Shown: positions 27,820 through 36,460 of the stretch, piece after piece
Layout: each line of letters starts with the position of its first letter
Position numbering within the stretch: position 1 is the stretch's first letter
Source: Nitrospira sp. CG24A
Lineage (GTDB): Bacteria; Nitrospirota; Nitrospiria; Nitrospirales; Nitrospiraceae
Direction of reading: 5' to 3'
Assembly: GCA_002869925.2 (NCBI GenBank)
Contig: NEWT02000035.1
Location: 86,571 to 147,684, forward strand
Length of the DNA stretch: 61,114 bases
Translations under genes and position numbers: made by a program
Notes under the pieces: generated by a model
What the model saw: only the letters and a program-made list of their open reading frames with translations
Databases searched by the model: none
What the model was told of the DNA's origin: nothing

Positions 27820-30651
27820 ATGGCCGGTCATTCCAATGCAGGAGCGATCGCTGTGCCGAACCCTCTGGACTCCAATTCATCGAGAGATCACCTCATCGTC
27901 GAGGGCGCGCGGCAGAATAATCTCAAAAATATCTCGCTCCGCATCCCGCACAATCAGGTCACCGCCATCACCGGCGTCTCAGGGTCGGGAAAATCTTCGC
28001 TCGCGTTCGACACGCTCTTTGCCGAAGGCCAATGGCGCTATGTGGAATCGCTCTCCACCTATGCCCGCATGTTTCTCGACAAGGTCAATCGACCCGATGT
28101 CGACCGGCTGATCAACGTGCGCCCCGCCATTGCGATCGAACAGAAGAACCCCATTCGCACAGCCCGCTCAACGGTCGGCACCACGACTGAAATCGCCGAT
28201 CTTCTGCGGCTCCTGTTCGCCAAAATCGGGCATCCGGTTTGCCCCGATTGCGCCATCGCTGCGCGCAGTTTTTTCCCCGACAGCGTCGTCGACGATCTCC
28301 TGACCCATTGTCGCGATGCGCGAGCGATGATTCTGTTTCCGGTCGCAGCGCCGGCGACGAAACAGGACCAAGCCTTTCTCCAATCGCTGTTGTTACGCGG
28401 ATACTCCAGATTGCAGTGCGGCAAGGAGATCCTCGATCTCCACGAGATCCAGACCCTTCCCGCAAGTAGGCCGGACCATCTGCACGTGATCCTCGATCGG
28501 CTGGTGATCCGGGAAGACAACCGATCCCGCCTGGTTGAAGCAATTGAAACGGCGTTTCGCGAGGGGGAGGGACTCTGCCGGGTAGAGGTCATCGACCAGG
28601 GACCCCGCACCTACAGCACGAATTTTCGATGCCAACGCTGTAGCCGAACATTCGAACCGATTCGCCCCGTCCTATTTTCCTTTAACCATCCGCTCGGCGC
28701 CTGTCCGGAGTGCAAAGGGTTCGGCAATATTCTGCGTTATGACCCAGACCTCGTCATCCCCGATCACAGCAAGTCGCTGGCTCAAGGCGCGATCGAACCC
28801 TGGAGTAAGCCCAGCGGCGATTGGTGGCAGAAGCAGCTGTTGCTCTCCATGAAACGGCGTGGGATCGACCTCGCCCTCCCCTACAGGGATCTACCGCAGC
28901 CTATCAAGCAGATACTCTGGGAAGGGGAAGGCAAGCTGGAGGGTGTGCGGCAATACTTCGAATACTTGGAAGGCAAGCGCTACAAGCTGCACGTGCGCGT
29001 GATGCTCAGCCGTTACCGAACGCCGGTCCCCTGTCCAAGCTGCTACGGGTCCCGTCTCCGACCGGATGCGCGCTACGTGAAGATCGCGGGCAGAGACATT
29101 CATGAGATTTCTGATTTCACGATCGAAGAAGCGAGCGTTTGGAGTACCTCCCTCGCCCTCTCTCCTTATGAAATACAGATCGCTCGCGACATCCTCCGAC
29201 AGCTGACAGCCAAACTTGGCTTTCTCCTCCGCGTGGGCCTCGGCTATCTGACACTCTCCCGTCAAACCCGCACGCTCTCGGGAGGAGAGGCCCAGCGCGC
29301 AGCGCTGGCGAATCAACTCGGCGCGCGCCTGGTCGGCACGCTCTACGTCCTCGATGAACCGACCATTGGCCTCCACCCACGCGACACCGCAACACTCGCC
29401 GGCATTCTGCGAGAGCTGGCAGTCCAAGGCAACACAGTCGTCGTTGTGGAGCACGATCGCCAAATGATGCAGGCCGCGGACTATCTGGTTGAGCTAGGGC
29501 CGTTATCCGGTGAGAAAGGCGGTGAGGTGATCTGTGCCGCGCCGCAACAAGAATTTATGGCAGACCGGCGGTCGATTACGGCGCGCTACCTGCGTGGCGA
29601 TGATGAAATAGCGATTCCACGATCCCGACGGAGAGGAAACGGGAATATTCTTGTGATCGCAGGCGCATGCGAGCACAACCTGAAAGATCTGTTCGTTCGT
29701 ATTCCGCTCGGCATGTTGGTCTGCGTCACCGGCGTGTCAGGGTCGGGCAAGAGCACGTTGGTCGAAGACACGCTCTACCGAGCCGTCGCCCGCGCCTTTC
29801 GTGTCGAGTCGCTGCCGATGGGCAAGTTTCGCGCGATTAAGGGGATCGAACATCTCACCGGCGTCAAGCTCATCGATCAGGAGCCCATCGGTCGCACACC
29901 ACGCTCGAACCCCATCACCTATCTGAAAGCGTTCGATGAAGTGCGCGCTCTCTTCGCCTCCGAACGCGATGCGCTCCGGAACGGGCTCACGCCAGGCCAT
30001 TTCTCTTTCAATACTACCGGTGGTCGGTGCGAACGCTGCGAAGGAAGCGGCGTTCAAAAGCTGGAAATGTATTTCTTCGAGGACATCTATGCGACGTGCG
30101 AAGCCTGCGACGGAAAGCGATTCAAACCTGACGTGCTCGCCATTCGCTATCGGGGGAAAACGATCCATGATGTGTTGCAGCTGACGGCGGAAGAGGCGCT
30201 GGGGTTTTTCAGCGGTTCGCCCAAGCTCACGGAAAAACTTCATCTGCTCTCGTCCATCGGACTGGGCTATCTCAGGCTCGGCCAAGCCGCCACAACCCTC
30301 TCAGGTGGCGAGGCTCAGCGGTTGAAGATCGCGTCCGAACTCAAAAACTCGTCTGCAAAGAACGGGCTTTACATCATGGACGAACCGACCACCGGGCTGC
30401 ACATCGACGACATCAAGAAACTGTTGGCCATGCTGCACAAGCTGGTGAACAGTGGCAACACCGTGGTCGTAGTGGAGCACAACCTTGACGTGATCAAGTC
30501 GGCAGATTGGGTGATCGACCTAGGCCCGGAAGGCGGCGCAGCCGGCGGACAGATTGTAGCTGAAGGGCGACCGGAGCAGGTGGTGAAGGTAGCAGCGTCT
30601 CACACGGGACGATTCCTCTCGCACGTCCTTGTTCCATCGTCAGGATCATAG
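27820..30651 (+). CDS. uvrA: UvrA-family excinuclease ATPase
   Basis: A 943-residue damage-recognition ATPase of nucleotide excision repair. Both ABC modules are complete: Walker A ITGVSGSGKSSLAFDTL and VTGVSGSGKSTLVEDTL, signatures TLSGGEAQRAALA and TLSGGEAQRLKIA, and Walker B YVLDEPTIGLH and YIMDEPTTGLH. Zinc ligands are visible at GHPVCPDC, CQRCSRTF with GACPECKGFG, and CERCEGSGVQ with CEACDGKRFKPD. I chose the ATG at 27820 because length and homology fit; the frame extends further upstream without similarity. No ribosome site is obvious. The 3' 265 bp recur twice downstream in decayed form. It may be a second UvrA; a canonical copy elsewhere cannot be checked. Confidence 0.93.
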   Translation: MAGHSNAGAIAVPNPLDSNSSRDHLIVEGARQNNLKNISLRIPHNQVTAITGVSGSGKSSLAFDTLFAEGQWRYVESLSTYARMFLDKVNRPDVDRLINVRPAIAIEQKNPIRTARSTVGTTTEIADLLRLLFAKIGHPVCPDCAIAARSFFPDSVVDDLLTHCRDARAMILFPVAAPATKQDQAFLQSLLLRGYSRLQCGKEILDLHEIQTLPASRPDHLHVILDRLVIREDNRSRLVEAIETAFREGEGLCRVEVIDQGPRTYSTNFRCQRCSRTFEPIRPVLFSFNHPLGACPECKGFGNILRYDPDLVIPDHSKSLAQGAIEPWSKPSGDWWQKQLLLSMKRRGIDLALPYRDLPQPIKQILWEGEGKLEGVRQYFEYLEGKRYKLHVRVMLSRYRTPVPCPSCYGSRLRPDARYVKIAGRDIHEISDFTIEEASVWSTSLALSPYEIQIARDILRQLTAKLGFLLRVGLGYLTLSRQTRTLSGGEAQRAALANQLGARLVGTLYVLDEPTIGLHPRDTATLAGILRELAVQGNTVVVVEHDRQMMQAADYLVELGPLSGEKGGEVICAAPQQEFMADRRSITARYLRGDDEIAIPRSRRRGNGNILVIAGACEHNLKDLFVRIPLGMLVCVTGVSGSGKSTLVEDTLYRAVARAFRVESLPMGKFRAIKGIEHLTGVKLIDQEPIGRTPRSNPITYLKAFDEVRALFASERDALRNGLTPGHFSFNTTGGRCERCEGSGVQKLEMYFFEDIYATCEACDGKRFKPDVLAIRYRGKTIHDVLQLTAEEALGFFSGSPKLTEKLHLLSSIGLGYLRLGQAATTLSGGEAQRLKIASELKNSSAKNGLYIMDEPTTGLHIDDIKKLLAMLHKLVNSGNTVVVVEHNLDVIKSADWVIDLGPEGGAAGGQIVAEGRPEQVVKVAASHTGRFLSHVLVPSSGS

Positions 30652-30906: not shown

Positions 30907-31188
30907 ATGAGCATTACATCCAAAGACATCATCTCGCTGAGTCGAGCGCGCGCGAAGCTCACCGAACTGTGCGATGAAGTGCGCACCAAGGGAAGCGAAA
31001 AACTCATTACCAAGAATGGGGGCAGTTGCGCGGCGCTCATCGACGCGGACCGCTTGGACTATTACCATCGATTGGAACGAGAGCACATCCATCTCGGATT
31101 ATTGGAAGAAGCGATCAAGGGCCTCACCGACGTCAAGGCAGGCAAGACACTCAGCCTCGCCCAGCTCAAATCGCGTCATGGCCGGTAA
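30907..31188 (+). CDS. Type II antitoxin, Phd/YefM-like
   Basis: A 93-residue antitoxin-like protein. The N-terminal ISLSRARAKLTELCDEV and LITKNGGSCAALIDADRLDYY match the Phd/YefM DNA-binding fold; the acidic-to-basic C-terminal helix should wrap the toxin. Its stop overlaps the toxin start by 11 bp, so the pair is co-translated. It has its own promoter and operator just upstream. It lies between uvrA and the first decayed uvrA 3' copy. Confidence 0.8.
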   Translation: MSITSKDIISLSRARAKLTELCDEVRTKGSEKLITKNGGSCAALIDADRLDYYHRLEREHIHLGLLEEAIKGLTDVKAGKTLSLAQLKSRHGR

Positions 31189-31552
31189 GCGACCGCGATT
31201 TACTGAAAACTTCTCAGCCAATCTCACGGCCATTGAAGAGTTCGTCGCCCCACACAGCCGAACGGCATTTCATCGGTTCCTTGACCGACTCTTCGAGGAC
31301 GTCATTCCCACGCTGTGCCGGTTCCCGCAATCCGGTCGAGCGTTCTTAACCCGCGCAGTGAAATCTCCCAAAGCGAATGCGCGAACCAAAGATCTGCGCA
31401 AATTCCTCAAGCAAGGAGACGATCTGCGCGAATTCATAATGGACGACTACCTTGCGCTCTACTTGATCCGCCAGCGCCATGTGATCTTCCTCGCCGTGAA
31501 GCACCATCGGCAATTGTCATTCGACCTCAAACGATTCTGGATCGATGAATAA
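31178..31552 (+). CDS. Type II toxin, RelE/ParE-like
   Basis: A 124-residue protein from the ATG at 31178. The pattern FTENFSANLTAIEEFVAP, LTRAVKSPKANARTKDLR, FIMDDYLALYLIRQRHVIFLAVKHHRQLSFDL fits the RelE/ParE fold (central sheet ending in a strand with ILAVKH-type motif). Whether it cuts mRNA or blocks gyrase cannot be decided. The stop codon is embedded in a perfect 18-bp palindrome that should end transcription. Confidence 0.75.
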   Translation: MAGKRPRFTENFSANLTAIEEFVAPHSRTAFHRFLDRLFEDVIPTLCRFPQSGRAFLTRAVKSPKANARTKDLRKFLKQGDDLREFIMDDYLALYLIRQRHVIFLAVKHHRQLSFDLKRFWIDE

Positions 31553-31568: not shown

Positions 31569-31591
31569 TGGGCCAGTCTGACTACAAACCA

Positions 31592-31863
31592 GACCACCGG
31601 CCTGCACGTCAAGGATATCAAGAAGCTCCTGGCGATACTGCAGAAGCTGGTGAACAGCGGCAATACGGTGGTGGTGATGTAACACAACCTGAATGTGATC
31701 AGAGCGCCGATTGGATTATCGACCTAGGACCGGAAGACGGCGCAGCCGGCGGACAGATTGTAGCTGAAGGGCGACCGGAGCAGGTGGTGAAGGTAGCAGC
31801 GTCTCACACCGGGCGATTCCTGGCAAGCGCGCTCATGCCGACGATACCCAGGAATGGTCGCTG
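31592..31863 (+). pseudogene. Decayed copy 1 of the uvrA 3' end
   Basis: Matches uvrA 30387-30651, from GACCACCGG to the stop. The reading is broken by TAA at GTGATGTAACACAAC (where uvrA has GTGGAGCAC) and by small deletions. A 72-bp block (31738-31809) is identical to uvrA 30534-30605 although flanks differ at many sites. The final codons resemble copy 2 (GCTCATGCC) and not uvrA. Confidence 0.85.
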
Positions 31864-31877
31864 ACCCATGTCTTTCC

Positions 31878-32297
31878 TCAAGCAAATTTTTTGACGCCCG
31901 CTTTCTTTGCAGCCTTCTGCAAATCTTCGTCGAGAGTCGCCAGGGGTAAGCCTAATCGTAAGGCCAGTTCGAGATACGAGGCATCGTACGCGGAAAGTTT
32001 GTATCGCCGCGCTAGTTGAAGGGTATCCGACAGCGCGTGTATGAATGTGGCAGTATCCACCTCAATTTCTACATCGTCCAACATCTCAAGAAATGCCCCG
32101 CTCCGAGCTTCTGTCACCAGAGCCTTTTCTTCCGCCTTAGCGATGACATTGGCCACCTCCAGTCCCCAGGTTATGGGCACACAGGCTTTGGCATCTTGCA
32201 TCGCCTCAAGCACTCTACCGGCATACGCAAGTTCTTGCGGTTTGCCATCGCCGAAAAACCACCGCATGGTCACCGAATTATCAAGAATGAAGCTCAC
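31878..32297 (-). CDS. VapC-type PIN-domain toxin
   Basis: A 139-residue ribonuclease-like toxin. The PIN acidic residues are present: D6 in LDNSVTMRW, E in LEVANVI, D in LSAYDASYLELA and D in LATLDEDLQ. Expected to cut tRNA or rRNA when not bound by antitoxin. The ATG overlaps the antitoxin stop by 4 bp. It sits between the two decayed uvrA 3' copies, on the opposite strand to them. Confidence 0.88.
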   Translation of the reverse strand: MSFILDNSVTMRWFFGDGKPQELAYAGRVLEAMQDAKACVPITWGLEVANVIAKAEEKALVTEARSGAFLEMLDDVEIEVDTATFIHALSDTLQLARRYKLSAYDASYLELALRLGLPLATLDEDLQKAAKKAGVKKFA

Positions 32298-32536
32298 GCG
32301 CGCCCCTCCTCAATGAGCTTCTTGATATTCACACCACGCACTGGATCGGCCAGCATGAACGCCTTCAGCTTTCCCACTGCCGCAACTTTGTCCCTGACCC
32401 TTGCACCTGCGCTCGGCACAAGGTCTGCAATCGCCTCCCCACGATTCGTGATAGTAAAGCTTTTGCCGGCCTTGACCTGCCGCAGTAATTCAGGAAGCTT
32501 TGTTTTTGCTTCATATGAACCAATTTCTATCTTCAT
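32294..32536 (-). CDS. Phd-like antitoxin of the VapC pair
   Basis: An 80-residue antitoxin: IEIGSYEAKTKLPELLRQV, then SFTITNRGEAIADLVP, the standard Phd/YefM opening, followed by a toxin-binding helix (VNIKKLIEEGRA). The ATG at 32536 follows GGGGAAC; the longer frame includes promoter sequence. Upstream, 32560-32585 (AGACCAGTATATAGACTAG) probably contains promoter and operator. Confidence 0.85.
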   Translation of the reverse strand: MKIEIGSYEAKTKLPELLRQVKAGKSFTITNRGEAIADLVPSAGARVRDKVAAVGKLKAFMLADPVRGVNIKKLIEEGRA

Positions 32537-32627
32537 GATGTTCCCCTGGGCTACGAAATAACTGTAGACCAGTATATAGACTAGTCCGAATGAACTCAAC
32601 GATCCCGCCGAAAGGCCATATAAACGC

Positions 32628-32882
32628 GACCGCCTGGCTGCACATCGAGGGCATCAAGAAGCTCCTGGCGATTTTGCAGAAGCCAGGAAACAGCGGCAAT
32701 ACATAGAGCGGTGGCACACAACCTAGACGCCACCGAAAAATTAGTAGATTGGATTATCGACCTAGGACCGGAAGGGGGCGTGGCTTACGGACACATTGTA
32801 GCAGAAGAACGACCGGAGCAGGTGGCGAAAGTGGTGGCCTCTCATACCGGACAATTCCTAGCAGGCTCGCTCATGCCAGTGC
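32628..32882 (+). pseudogene. Decayed copy 2 of the uvrA 3' end
   Basis: Matches uvrA from the GACCACCGG region (here GACCGCCTGG) to near the stop, broken by TAG after GGCAATACA and by a frame change. It is more degraded than copy 1 but shares with it AAGAAGCTCCTGGCGAT, GATTGGATTATCGACC and the GCTCATGCC tail, all differing from uvrA. Thus copies 1 and 2 have a common source. Confidence 0.8.
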
Positions 32883-32954: not shown

Positions 32955-33413
32955 CTATCTCTTGCCAATCTTACTAGTCTCACGAAGAGGGTTGCTTGGC
33001 CTTCCTCCTTGCCAGTTCCAATTCCACGAAAACACAACCTCATCGAGAGAGAACACCGAAACATCAGGAAAGTCGTGAAGCCGCTTTCGCGCAGCATCAC
33101 ACTCTTCCTTTCTCACAAATATAGTAACGTGGTATTCCCACTCCTCGAAGATCGGGCTTAGCTTAGAGAAATGGTCCTGTAGAGGTTCAAACCAGCGGGA
33201 TTTACGCTCATCAACTCTGCTGAGTATATTTTTCTTGTCTGCGGCTGAGGTAACTTCGACTACATACACAGTGCTACTCGAGAAATCCAAAACAAGAAAG
33301 TCAGGACAACTTCCCCCTTTAGAACCATCGTAAGGGATGTTGAACTGCGCGCTGACAAATCTTTCTGGCGGACCACACAAATACCTTAGTACCGCTTCTT
33401 CGAATTGATCCAT
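32955..33413 (-). CDS. PD-(D/E)XK-like hypothetical protein
   Basis: A 152-residue protein with a core typical of restriction-endonuclease-like folds: [21 protein letters not shown]. The aspartate in PDF and glutamate in VEV fit a metal site, but the usual lysine is threonine (EVT), so activity is uncertain. An N-terminal helix ([12 protein letters not shown]) and a C-terminal half with [22 protein letters not shown] complete it. It lies beyond uvrA copy 2 and points the same way as the WYL-DnaG-like cluster, though 141 bp separate it from the third Cys/His repeat. Confidence 0.55.
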
Positions 33414-33655
33414 CTACCCTCCTTCGTATAAAGTGCGATTCGAATTGGCCACCAAACTTTATTGGGACGGAAACATTTCCAATGTTTTCCTGTACTCTGC
33501 TGCACAATTGAATGGCGAAAATTTAATTGATCAATTGTCTCTTTTTCTCATTGTCATTGTTCATGATTCTTGTGAGGACTATTGAGACACTCGCTGCCGG
33601 TCGTAGCTGAGCCGCAGTATACACATTTACTCGCACCGCTACCATGACGATGAAC

Positions 33656-33814
33656 TTATGACGGGCCGTAAAAGCAGCCTCGGCCATAGGACGTTGAGTT
33701 GCAAAATACACAATGTTTTTCATCCACTCCACTGTGTTCGTGATGTTTGTGAGGGCTGTTGAAACAGCCGGAGCCGAACGACATGGCGTTACAAAACTTA
33801 CACTTGGTTGCCAT
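33656..33814 (-). CDS. Small Cys/His-repeat protein, possibly interrupted
   Basis: A 52-residue product with two repeats: CKFCNAMSFGSGCFNSPHKH and CVFCNSTSYGRGCFYGPS. Each has CxxC, a later C and then (first repeat) PHKHHEH, suggesting zinc binding. After the stop TAA at 33656-33658 the same frame continues VHRHGSGASK then CVYCGSATTGSECLNSPHKN and ends HEQ at 33554, a third repeat. The gene is therefore either shortened by a nonsense change or read through. The ATG at 33814 has AGGGGG six bases upstream. It starts 10 bp after the preceding gene. Confidence 0.6.
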   Translation of the reverse strand: MATKCKFCNAMSFGSGCFNSPHKHHEHSGVDEKHCVFCNSTSYGRGCFYGPS

Positions 33815-33824
33815 ACTCATCCCC

Positions 33825-34088
33825 CTACGGACGAACTCCACACTTCGCTAGAGCCTGCAATCTCAGGCGTTCCAGTGCAAGCTGCCGCTGAGTTGCTCCC
33901 TCAATCTTCATCGCCTCCTGGAATTCCTCGTCGTGATGCTCAAAGTATGTTCTACAGACAACGTGCTCCTGAATGACCGCCTTGAGCGGCTTGTTCATGG
34001 TCGCTTGGCTGAGGTCATCCCCTGTACTGACAAGTTGAATAATCAAGCTCAAGACCCATTCCATATCGGCACCCTGTACCTGTTTCAC
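33825..34088 (-). CDS. Small hypothetical protein of the DnaG-like cluster
   Basis: An 87-residue, mostly helical protein (IIQLVSTGDDLSQATMNKPLK, split as IIQLVSTGDDL and SQATMNKPLK; YFEHHDEEFQEAMK; RQLALERLRLQALAKCG). I do not recognise a family. It starts 3 bp after the DnaG-like stop and ends 10 bp before the Cys/His-repeat gene, so the three form a tight unit. An ATG at 34064 with AGGG upstream is an alternative start. Confidence 0.55.
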   Translation of the reverse strand: MKQVQGADMEWVLSLIIQLVSTGDDLSQATMNKPLKAVIQEHVVCRTYFEHHDEEFQEAMKIEGATQRQLALERLRLQALAKCGVRP

Positions 34089-34091
34089 ATA

Positions 34092-35378
34092 TCAAGAAGA
34101 CAGCGCCTGGCTCAACGGAGTTGCCGCCCTGATTGCTGCTCGCACGGCTTCGGGGCCTTGCCGCTGTAGCAATTCCGTCAGCCACCGTCCTACTGGGAGC
34201 GACAAGAGTTTTACTCGCCGATAGTCCGATCCCACTTGCTCCATGATTGCTTCAATCTCGCGGCTAGTGTCGCCCTCTACGCGACATGGAAAAATAAGGG
34301 TCTGTGCAAGCGCAAACGCCGTTCTCATGGCATATGGGTTCGGCCGGTGCCAGTCCTGAACAATATAAACCGCATTCTCTATCCCTATGCTGTGCAGCGC
34401 CACGACTTCCCACGCGGTCCTCGTTATGACGATCTCCTCGAACTTATTCAGATCCTGAGGCCATATCGGCGCAGGCACTATCAACCGCCTCAAACGTCGT
34501 TCCGAAAAAGAGGAGGTATGTTGCACCCAATGGTCTGCGGCTGAGGGATCTGAATCGACCATATTTCTGTTCGTGCAAAATCCATATTCATGGCCTTCAT
34601 GATCAACGACTGGAATAATCATGCCTTCGCAAGAGTCTTTCATCCGACCACGGGTATTCCGGAAAGTCGCTCCAGAAGCTTCAATTGCGTGAGGGCTATA
34701 TCCTTGATCGAGCAGATGGTCCAGCAGCAACTCATCCGAATCCAGAGGGGCATAGCCAAGCCCAAAGCGCTCGATAGTGTCCACCCCAATCCCCTGTTCG
34801 CTCAGCCATCTTTTTGCCACGACTCCTTCCATACGGTGACAGAGCACCTCACTGTAAAACCGTCTGGTTTCGGCCAGGATTCTCCGGTACCGCTGCCATT
34901 CAGGCACACGCCCCCGCAACTTACCGGAATCTAGCATTGAACGAAGGCCGTCGATTGCCGTGGCACAGGAACACTTCTCTGCCTTCATAAAGAAGTCAAT
35001 CGCTGAGCCGTGAGACTGACAGTTGCAGCAGTGATATGAATCATCCCTCATATAGAGGCTGTCGCTTGACGGACAAAAAGGGCAATGTGCGTAGAAGCTC
35101 AACGATTCCCCGCCTACGCCTGTTCGGTTTCCTGCGACACTTGTCAGCAAGGTGTACCACGTTGCCAACTCGATGCAATCCAAGTCATCCATCAGATTTT
35201 CCCATTGCTCAATGGCCATGAGACTCTGCGTACCACCTTTTATGCTGTCGCTGGACTGAATAACTGAAGCGTTAGAGTTGACATCACTTGCTGCAACCCT
35301 CAAAGGCTGGAATACGGGAACAATGCTGCTGAGTCCGACAGCTGCAGCAGTCTTTATGAATGTACGCCTATTGAGCAT
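34092..35378 (-). CDS. DnaG-primase-like protein with twin-arginine leader
   Basis: A 428-residue protein that starts with a Tat-type leader (NRRTFIK, hydrophobic AAAVGLSSIVPVF, end RVAAS) and then follows the bacterial primase plan. A zinc ribbon uses C99, C102, C117 and C120 (AHCPFCPSSD, SYHCCNCQSHGSAIDFF); the primase core shows RRFYSEVL, TIERFGLGYAP, LLDQGYSPHAIEASG and GMIIPVVDHEGHEYGF. The TOPRIM motif usually EGYxDVxAL reads TRTAWEVVAL, and the DxD reads DWH, so primer synthesis is unlikely. No helicase-binding domain follows. A ribosome site GGAGG precedes the ATG. It is preceded by a WYL regulator gene. Role unknown; a leader on a primase relative is unexpected. Confidence 0.8.
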   Translation of the reverse strand: MLNRRTFIKTAAAVGLSSIVPVFQPLRVAASDVNSNASVIQSSDSIKGGTQSLMAIEQWENLMDDLDCIELATWYTLLTSVAGNRTGVGGESLSFYAHCPFCPSSDSLYMRDDSYHCCNCQSHGSAIDFFMKAEKCSCATAIDGLRSMLDSGKLRGRVPEWQRYRRILAETRRFYSEVLCHRMEGVVAKRWLSEQGIGVDTIERFGLGYAPLDSDELLLDHLLDQGYSPHAIEASGATFRNTRGRMKDSCEGMIIPVVDHEGHEYGFCTNRNMVDSDPSAADHWVQHTSSFSERRLRRLIVPAPIWPQDLNKFEEIVITRTAWEVVALHSIGIENAVYIVQDWHRPNPYAMRTAFALAQTLIFPCRVEGDTSREIEAIMEQVGSDYRRVKLLSLPVGRWLTELLQRQGPEAVRAAIRAATPLSQALSS

Positions 35379-35424
35379 GGCTTCCCTCCATTTCTTGGTA
35401 TGAGAAGGAGGCTAGCACCTGCCT

Positions 35425-35441
35425 GTGACAGACTATGTCAC
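35425..35441. promoter_or_regulatory. Inverted repeat between the WYL and DnaG-like genes
   Basis: GTGACA-GACTA-TGTCAC is a perfect 6-bp-arm palindrome overlapping the WYL stop codon and 47 bp before the DnaG-like ATG. It is a candidate operator for the WYL regulator. Confidence 0.4.
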
Positions 35442-36460
35442 GCCTTGGTTTTGTGTGGCGAGTACTGCTTGTGAGCGGCTGTGAGGTGGGCACGGACCGA
35501 TTGGACCAACTCTGGTGGGCTCAGCACTTTGGCATCAGCACCCCATGAAAGAATCCAAGAAGTAATTTCTTCTAGCCCCCCGGCTTGGAAGGTGACGATG
35601 ACTGACTTATCCTTTTGCAGCTTGAGCGATTGGGTTGGATGCCACTGACGCTCTTTGAGGAGATAGGCCACATCGGAGCTGAACCAGATGCGCACGGTCT
35701 TTATGGGTTCATCGATCAGACCAAAAAGACGACGGGACTGAGCCTCCCAGGAAAAGTCCGACGGCATGTCGAAGCGATCGTCGGTCACATCGACTCGATG
35801 GATGCGCTCAACAGAAAACATACGGAGCGCCTTGGCACGATCCGAGTACCCGACGATATACAGGCCATACTGATAGAGAACCAGCACATACGGGTCGACG
35901 TGATGCGCAGTTGGCTCTTCATAATCCGGTCTTTGATGATACAGCATCACGGTGCGCTGCAGGAGTAGTGCCCTTCTGAGATCACTCAAAATCCTCGTCT
36001 GCTTCGCGTACGATCGCTTCGGCCCTTGCACAGGGACAAATACGCGGCTGATCCTCTCCAGATGATTGGCGACTTTGGCGGGAAGCCCAGATTCGACTTT
36101 CGCAATCACGCTTTCAAGATCGTCGACAAACAGTGTGCCTTTCAAATAGGCCAGATGATTCTTAGCCAGATGCAGCGACATGAGTTCATACTGAGTGATA
36201 GCAATTTTTGGAAGGCCTTTGTAGCCAAGAGGCAATTGCCACGTCTGCTCGCCCGACCCATTGGACCGCTCGAGGGGATGGCCTTCTTTTTCAATTTCCG
36301 CCAGATCGCGATACACCTGCCGTCTGGTAATCCCGAATTCGTCGGCCAGTCCATTGATCGTCACGGCTCGACTAGCCAGAGCCCGCATCATGCGGGCGAG
36401 GCGATCAGCCTGGCTGTAGGCTTTGGGCTTGCGCCCTCTCGGATTGCGCTGGTTATCCAT
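35438..36460 (-). CDS. WYL-domain transcriptional regulator
   Basis: A 340-residue regulator: winged HTH (about 18-75, TINGLADEFGITRRQVYRDLAEIE) and a WYL domain (about 150-240). The name-giving WYL triplet reads LYI in GLYIVGYSDR, and the conserved arginine is in LRMFSVERIHRVDV. A C-terminal domain (about 255-330) resembles the WCX extension. Such regulators sense nucleic-acid ligands and often repress phage-defence loci. It is 4 bp after the PDZ lipoprotein gene and 59 bp before the DnaG-like gene, all in one direction. Confidence 0.9.
   Translation of the reverse strand: MDNQRNPRGRKPKAYSQADRLARMMRALASRAVTINGLADEFGITRRQVYRDLAEIEKEGHPLERSNGSGEQTWQLPLGYKGLPKIAITQYELMSLHLAKNHLAYLKGTLFVDDLESVIAKVESGLPAKVANHLERISRVFVPVQGPKRSYAKQTRILSDLRRALLLQRTVMLYHQRPDYEEPTAHHVDPYVLVLYQYGLYIVGYSDRAKALRMFSVERIHRVDVTDDRFDMPSDFSWEAQSRRLFGLIDEPIKTVRIWFSSDVAYLLKERQWHPTQSLKLQKDKSVIVTFQAGGLEEITSWILSWGADAKVLSPPELVQSVRAHLTAAHKQYSPHKTKA

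Follow-up and report, generated by a model that had tools for sequence, protein, structure and literature searches.

A putatively WYL-controlled variable island of Nitrospirales, a candidate defence locus, with a degenerate primase predicted to be exported

A stretch of 61,114 nucleotides from Nitrospira sp. CG24A (contig NEWT02000035.1, positions 86,571 to 147,684; 'the window' hereafter, numbered from its first nucleotide) carries on its minus strand four open reading frames (ORFs), which encode a WYL regulator, a DnaG-like protein with a twin-arginine leader (here called TDnaG), a small protein termed p87 and a protein with Cys/His repeats. An initial annotation made from the letters alone had proposed these four same-strand ORFs as a new system, and its intergenic gaps of 59 bp (WYL–TDnaG) and 3 bp (TDnaG–p87) are correct; the third gap, of 10 bp, requires that translation of the Cys/His ORF begin at its internal ATG (33814), whereas from its GTG start this ORF overlaps p87. 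The locus contains the following features (G and L numbers used below are our handles for genomes and loci):

35438..36460, minus strand: WYL transcriptional regulator (HTH_11-WYL-WCX), 340 residues, by Pfam
35425..35441, minus strand: candidate WYL operator GTGACATAGTCTGTCAC, 6-bp arms and 5-bp spacer, recurring in relatives before both TDnaG paralogues (TDnaG1, TDnaG2), p87 and the small protein F16
35385..35389, minus strand: Shine-Dalgarno sequence GGAGG 5' of the TDnaG ATG, by sequence reading
34092..35378, minus strand: TDnaG, 428 residues, with Tat (twin-arginine translocation) leader, DnaG-type zinc ribbon, RNA-polymerase-domain fold and degenerate TOPRIM part, by Pfam, AlphaFold2, structure match and tree
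35286..35378, minus strand: twin-arginine leader MLNRRTFIKTAAAVGLSSIVPVFQPLRVAAS, residues 1-31 of TDnaG, by R4/R5 invariance
35016..35099, minus strand: CHC2-type zinc ribbon, TDnaG residues 94-121 (C99/C102/C117/C120), by Zn_ribbon_DnaG match
34095..34445, minus strand: TOPRIM-like part, TDnaG residues 312-428, lacking the catalytic acids (R320, R366, E368), by hhalign and column counts
33825..34088, minus strand: p87, small protein with two conserved cysteines and a CGVRP tail, by alignment of relatives
33656..33841, minus strand: Cys/His-repeat ORF, two repeats, ending at an in-frame TAA, likely start 33814, by comparison of relatives
33554..33655, minus strand: third Cys/His repeat, past the TAA stop with its frame intact, by comparison of relatives
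32955..33413, minus strand: variable-slot gene, 152 residues, PD-(D/E)XK-like (PDF...VEVTS), by inspection

The combination of a twin-arginine leader and a DnaG zinc ribbon in one protein, to which the initial annotation had drawn attention, is real: M1, R4 and R5 as well as the four cysteines C99/C102/C117/C120 are invariant in all 21 full-length TDnaG relatives, which are 26-72% (mostly 26-40%) identical to the protein of the window. In Pfam, DNAG_N and the zinc ribbon of DnaG (Zn_ribbon_DnaG, 2.2e-7) exceed the cut-off, hhalign against Nitrospirales DnaG gives an E value of 3e-38, and the structure prediction that had been suggested as a check returned a DnaG fold, i.e. an AlphaFold2 model with a confident core (mean predicted local distance difference test score, pLDDT, 77.8), whose best structural matches are RNA polymerase domains of DnaG (3b39, Z 25.0, 2.8 Å, 258 residues) and whose zinc domain matches 1d0q (Z 8.8). 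TDnaG thus shares with bacterial DnaG the four-cysteine zinc ribbon and the whole RNA-polymerase-domain fold, but differs from it in its Tat leader, in the loss of catalytic acids and of the KYLNSPET motif, in ending after the TOPRIM part without a Pfam match to the C-terminal helicase-binding domain, and in forming a single clade of its own (support 100/100), with TDnaG1 and TDnaG2 as its two main paralogues.

Profile alignment agrees that R320 occupies the position of the TOPRIM glutamate. It does not support H344 as the second altered residue, since the equivalents of the DxD pair are R366 and E368; D343 and D345 of DnaG align with W and T in TDnaG, and neither later aspartate is kept. Even after proper alignment, therefore, the TOPRIM residues of the window TDnaG are not intact. 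R320 is atypical of the family, because 15 of the 21 relatives have the glutamate; the DxD pair is lost across the family. The gene is under purifying selection (ratio of nonsynonymous to synonymous substitution rates, dN/dS, 0.28 versus G165). Judged by sequence and model, TDnaG is a degenerate primase that keeps the DnaG fold and has lost the active site, and it may bind nucleic acid without priming. It is not a duplicated replicative primase, as a normal dnaG lies elsewhere in the genome and TDnaG belongs to a separate clade, nor a phage or plasmid primase, relatives from these sources being about 25% identical and mostly annotated as ordinary primases; a scan of viral contigs returned no TDnaG relatives.

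The leader is a genuine conserved feature. A mis-called start or annotation error is ruled out by the invariant M1/R4/R5 and the good ribosome site GGAGG before the ATG, and homologues retain the leader rather than starting after it. All leaders show the pattern [TNS]-R-R-x-[FL]-[FIL]-[KQ] together with an uncharged stretch of 12-26 residues and moderate hydrophobicity, and beyond the twin-arginine motif the N-terminus varies freely, as it does in signal peptides; the Pfam match to TAT_signal is just under threshold. A zinc protein that needs prior folding is a typical Tat passenger, and the source genome encodes TatC twice. By these features, TDnaG is predicted to be exported by Tat.

The assignment of the first gene as a WYL regulator was borne out by Pfam matches to HTH_11 (1.7e-8), WYL (5.8e-13) and WCX (5.1e-19). 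It is under purifying selection (dN/dS 0.125 versus G165), and across the mapped loci its homologues lie immediately 5' of TDnaG1 or p87 and on the same strand as these genes. The WYL–TDnaG junction carries a perfect palindrome, GTGACA-N5-TGTCAC, the window copy of which (GTGACATAGTCTGTCAC, 35425-35441) touches the WYL stop codon. It precedes every intact TDnaG of both paralogues with 9-12 of 12 arm positions, usually 11-12, and is also found 5' of F16 and, in loci without TDnaG1, of p87; 12/12 or 11/12 matches stand before most TDnaG1, TDnaG2, p87 and F16 units. A genome-wide search of the source genome found a single site within one mismatch of GTGACMTNNTCTGTCAC. Among the exact sites in 19 genomes, 22 of 25 are inside the island, the reversed pattern used as a control gave three matches in total, and the checked sites outside the island mostly fall within unrelated coding sequence (rpoA, a carbamoyltransferase). 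This distribution points to a dedicated, near-exclusive candidate operator of the island's WYL regulator. In G046, the palindrome 5' of TDnaG2 and a promoter-like -35 element (GTGACC-16-TATAGT) overlap, an arrangement that would fit repression. The palindrome was also considered as an RNA terminator, and this reading was rejected: the terminator-like call at the window site is on the antisense strand only, and one arm changes among relatives (GTGACC...TGTCAC) with no compensating change, which fits a protein site better.

In a search of 236 Nitrospirales genomes, in which ordinary DnaG copies scored far below TDnaG relatives, full-length TDnaG was found in 15 genomes and fragments in four others; full-length TDnaG2 occurs in eight genomes. 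Neighbourhood maps of 18 relatives show a common order, i.e. WYL followed by TDnaG1 or p87, p87 directly 3' of TDnaG1 (in about a dozen loci), then a changing gene and often F16. WYL-TDnaG-p87 is intact in the complete genome of the cultured Nitrospira moscoviensis, and its linkage is retained amid different surroundings in G133, G140 and G213. Of the proposed four-gene unit, these three genes are thus indeed linked elsewhere, among defence-type genes, but the Cys/His gene is unstable, and it is the operator, F16, TDnaG2 and a nuclease slot that belong to the unit instead. Two units have p87 without TDnaG: in G126 (L125 5268-12538, possibly a further WYL-type unit) the order is operator, p87, an AddAB-like helicase/nuclease pair (1018 and 1066 residues) and F16, and in a second island of G027 it is GmrSD, WYL, operator, p87, F16, operator and an AAA ATPase. 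Because of these units, the core is best described as WYL, operator, p87 and F16, joined by exchangeable parts, TDnaG being a frequent, non-universal member. A global genome scan with the single TDnaG protein, reduced to a short back-translated pattern, returned no loci, and one with the TDnaG alignment, again through one short pattern, returned eight, all from Nitrospira or Nitrospirota; the island is likely restricted to Nitrospirales, although with such short patterns absence elsewhere is not proven.

p87, without a match to any known family, was found in 12 of 396 Nitrospirota genomes and has a dN/dS of 0.17 in relatives. F16 is a small acidic protein (YIYTNWRGK...) that comes with its own operator or beside an effector (L034 8240-8452; L037 10618-10878; L126 7006-7215; L125 12275-12475); it belongs to no Pfam family, and a motif search did not find it in the window. 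The Cys/His ORF, also without a known family, ends in the window at an in-frame TAA after two repeats, so that its extension to 33554 in the initial annotation reads through a stop. It has few relatives within Nitrospirales, is intact with three repeats in the nearest relative, G165, only, and is frameshifted in N. moscoviensis; the stop and the frameshift mark it as a decaying accessory. A member of its repeat family (CxFCxxxSxGxGC...PHKxHEH) is present in G056 too (L107), apart from TDnaG.

The slot 3' of p87 differs in gene content from genome to genome. By family match it holds Mrr/PDC-S02 in G036 and G140, PDC-M15A in G053 (6.8e-38; relatives in G032 and G031), and GmrSD in G046 and the second island of G027. 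Other contents are a UDG-like protein in G165 (to which proteins of G097, G048 and G129 seem related by inspection), the AddAB-like pair of G126, an IetA-like AAA protein in G129 and G027, and unclassified nuclease-like proteins in G038, G029 and N. moscoviensis. The corresponding slot of G097 encodes a protein 69-70% identical to the slot protein of the window (32955-33413), and more distant relatives of the latter are found in two further genomes, away from the island. The model of the window protein (pLDDT 52) is too poor for a fold, and the restriction enzymes that top its Foldseek list, a possible lead, are non-significant matches. Several slot proteins, including that of the window, appear nuclease-like by inspection. 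MNT-HEPN genes are among the island's neighbours. In G046, the GmrSD slot gene is, by inspection, split by an IS3-like insertion (L041 10317-11494).

In most genomes the island adjoins uvrA. Within the window, the final ~240 bp of uvrA (30380-30617) recur twice on the same strand in degraded form, at 31584-31821 (85% identity) and 32627-32859 (75%), each copy being preceded by one toxin-antitoxin-like gene pair: a possible antitoxin/RelE-like toxin pair just past uvrA (30907-31552, by inspection; relative in G129, L048 9487-10132) and, between the remnants, a PIN-domain toxin and a Phd/YefM-like antitoxin (31878-32297 and 32294-32599). The islands of G147 (L047 5930-5997) and G129 (L048 8536-8730) contain comparable remnants of the uvrA 3' end. 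Together, these copies suggest that insertion at this site occurred repeatedly.

Several known systems resemble parts of this locus. The WYL protein has the architecture of BrxR (winged helix-turn-helix, WYL, C-terminal WCX), to which it is likened by its domains and an operator found in silico; BrxR, the WYL regulator of a phage-defence island, represses by binding inverted repeats with a 5-bp spacer (PMC9122601). As in the BrxR island of pEFER (PMC9122601), several inverted repeats with a 5-bp spacer stand before separate units; here, however, no BREX genes were seen, the arms are shorter (6 bp), the partners are TDnaG, p87 and F16, and there is one changing nuclease slot. TDnaG shares a DnaG-like domain in a defence setting with the DnaG-like proteins that accompany reverse transcriptases in PADLOC (RTasDnaG-like, RT_UG29), but the match is weak (6.1e-6) and no stronger than general DnaG similarity, TDnaG has a Tat leader, and none of the eight window proteins scanned is a reverse transcriptase. 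Slot proteins match families of type IV-like restriction or of candidate defence (Mrr/PDC-S02, GmrSD/HEC-05, PDC-M15A and IetA-like AAA), which here replace one another as passengers of a single WYL-operator-p87/F16 platform. No complete PADLOC system matches the TDnaG and p87 core (no match for p87, weak DnaG-like matches for TDnaG), and we found no paper that connects DnaG-like defence proteins with Tat leaders. Variable defence islands under WYL regulation are already known, but neither the libraries nor the literature searched contained one whose conserved core includes an exported primase relative without catalytic activity.

The locus is probably a WYL-controlled variable defence island of Nitrospirales with an exported, non-priming nucleic-acid-binding primase derivative; defence is favoured over housekeeping repair because of the patchy distribution, the variable nuclease content, the toxin-antitoxin and MNT-HEPN neighbours and the WYL regulator. 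If so, a WYL dimer may bind GTGACA-N5-TGTCAC over or beside promoters and repress them until an infection-derived nucleic-acid or nucleotide signal releases this repression. TDnaG would fold with zinc in the cytoplasm, be exported by Tat and then bind DNA or RNA via its zinc ribbon and the former primase trough without being able to prime, and would so serve as a trap or sensor of incoming DNA; the slot enzyme and p87 would attack foreign DNA in the cytoplasm. The exported nucleic-acid-binding decoy or sensor of the initial annotation is plausible in this respect; the more specific idea of a replication enzyme remade into a non-catalytic periplasmic trap or sensor of DNA, which beyond the inner membrane would be the outermost component of an anti-DNA system with exchangeable parts and WYL control, is tentative. 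Several points speak against such a defence island. The net charge of mature TDnaG is negative (about -2 to -18), which is not typical of DNA-binding proteins; TDnaG is not indispensable, given the units of G126 and G027 that lack it; a consensus search at the palindrome site of the window found no sigma-70 promoter; and how slot enzymes that look cytoplasmic cooperate with a TDnaG that looks exported is problematic.

The alternative that survives best, although it is unlikely, is a DNA-damage response island, in which WYL senses single-stranded DNA as DriD/PafBC do and activates repair-type genes by uvrA, with TDnaG handling damaged DNA. It stays alive because of the uvrA neighbourhood and the UDG- and AddAB-like cargo, and WYL regulators of the damage response are described (PMC10693628, PMC12340889); but TDnaG is present in few genomes, the slot also has Mrr, GmrSD, PDC-M15A and toxin-antitoxin-type genes, and a protein that repairs chromosomal DNA would have no use for a conserved export leader. 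It is improbable that the leader is instead an N-terminal anchor to the membrane or a partner and TDnaG a cytoplasmic or inner-face DNA-binding factor feeding the nuclease: the A-x-A cleavage motif is clear in some members only (AWA|Q, AVA|E) and unclear in others, including that of the window, residues 11-48 are predicted by AlphaFold2 to be disordered and slot enzymes have no obvious leaders, but the invariant twin-arginine pattern with its moderately hydrophobic uncharged stretch is that of Tat, and TatC and a folded zinc protein suit this route. Also improbable is an exchange hotspot, where WYL, TDnaG and p87 are conserved flanks or passengers without joint function and homologous recombination swaps the cargo. 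In its favour are the cargo that several genomes have between TDnaG1 and TDnaG2, the truncated TDnaG copies within islands (L036, L040) and the uvrA 3'-end duplications indicating repeated insertion, but the island-specific operator common to the units and the persistent linkage in altered surroundings argue for co-regulation.

If true, a WYL-controlled defence island with an exported primase derivative would represent a rare recruitment of a replication protein for work outside the cytoplasm and provide a handle on how ecologically important nitrifiers deal with foreign DNA. The palindrome constitutes a sharp prediction about the WYL regulator; further islands and new effectors can be sought with p87 and F16 as simple markers. 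With N. moscoviensis carrying WYL-TDnaG-p87 intact, the localization of TDnaG and its binding are directly testable.

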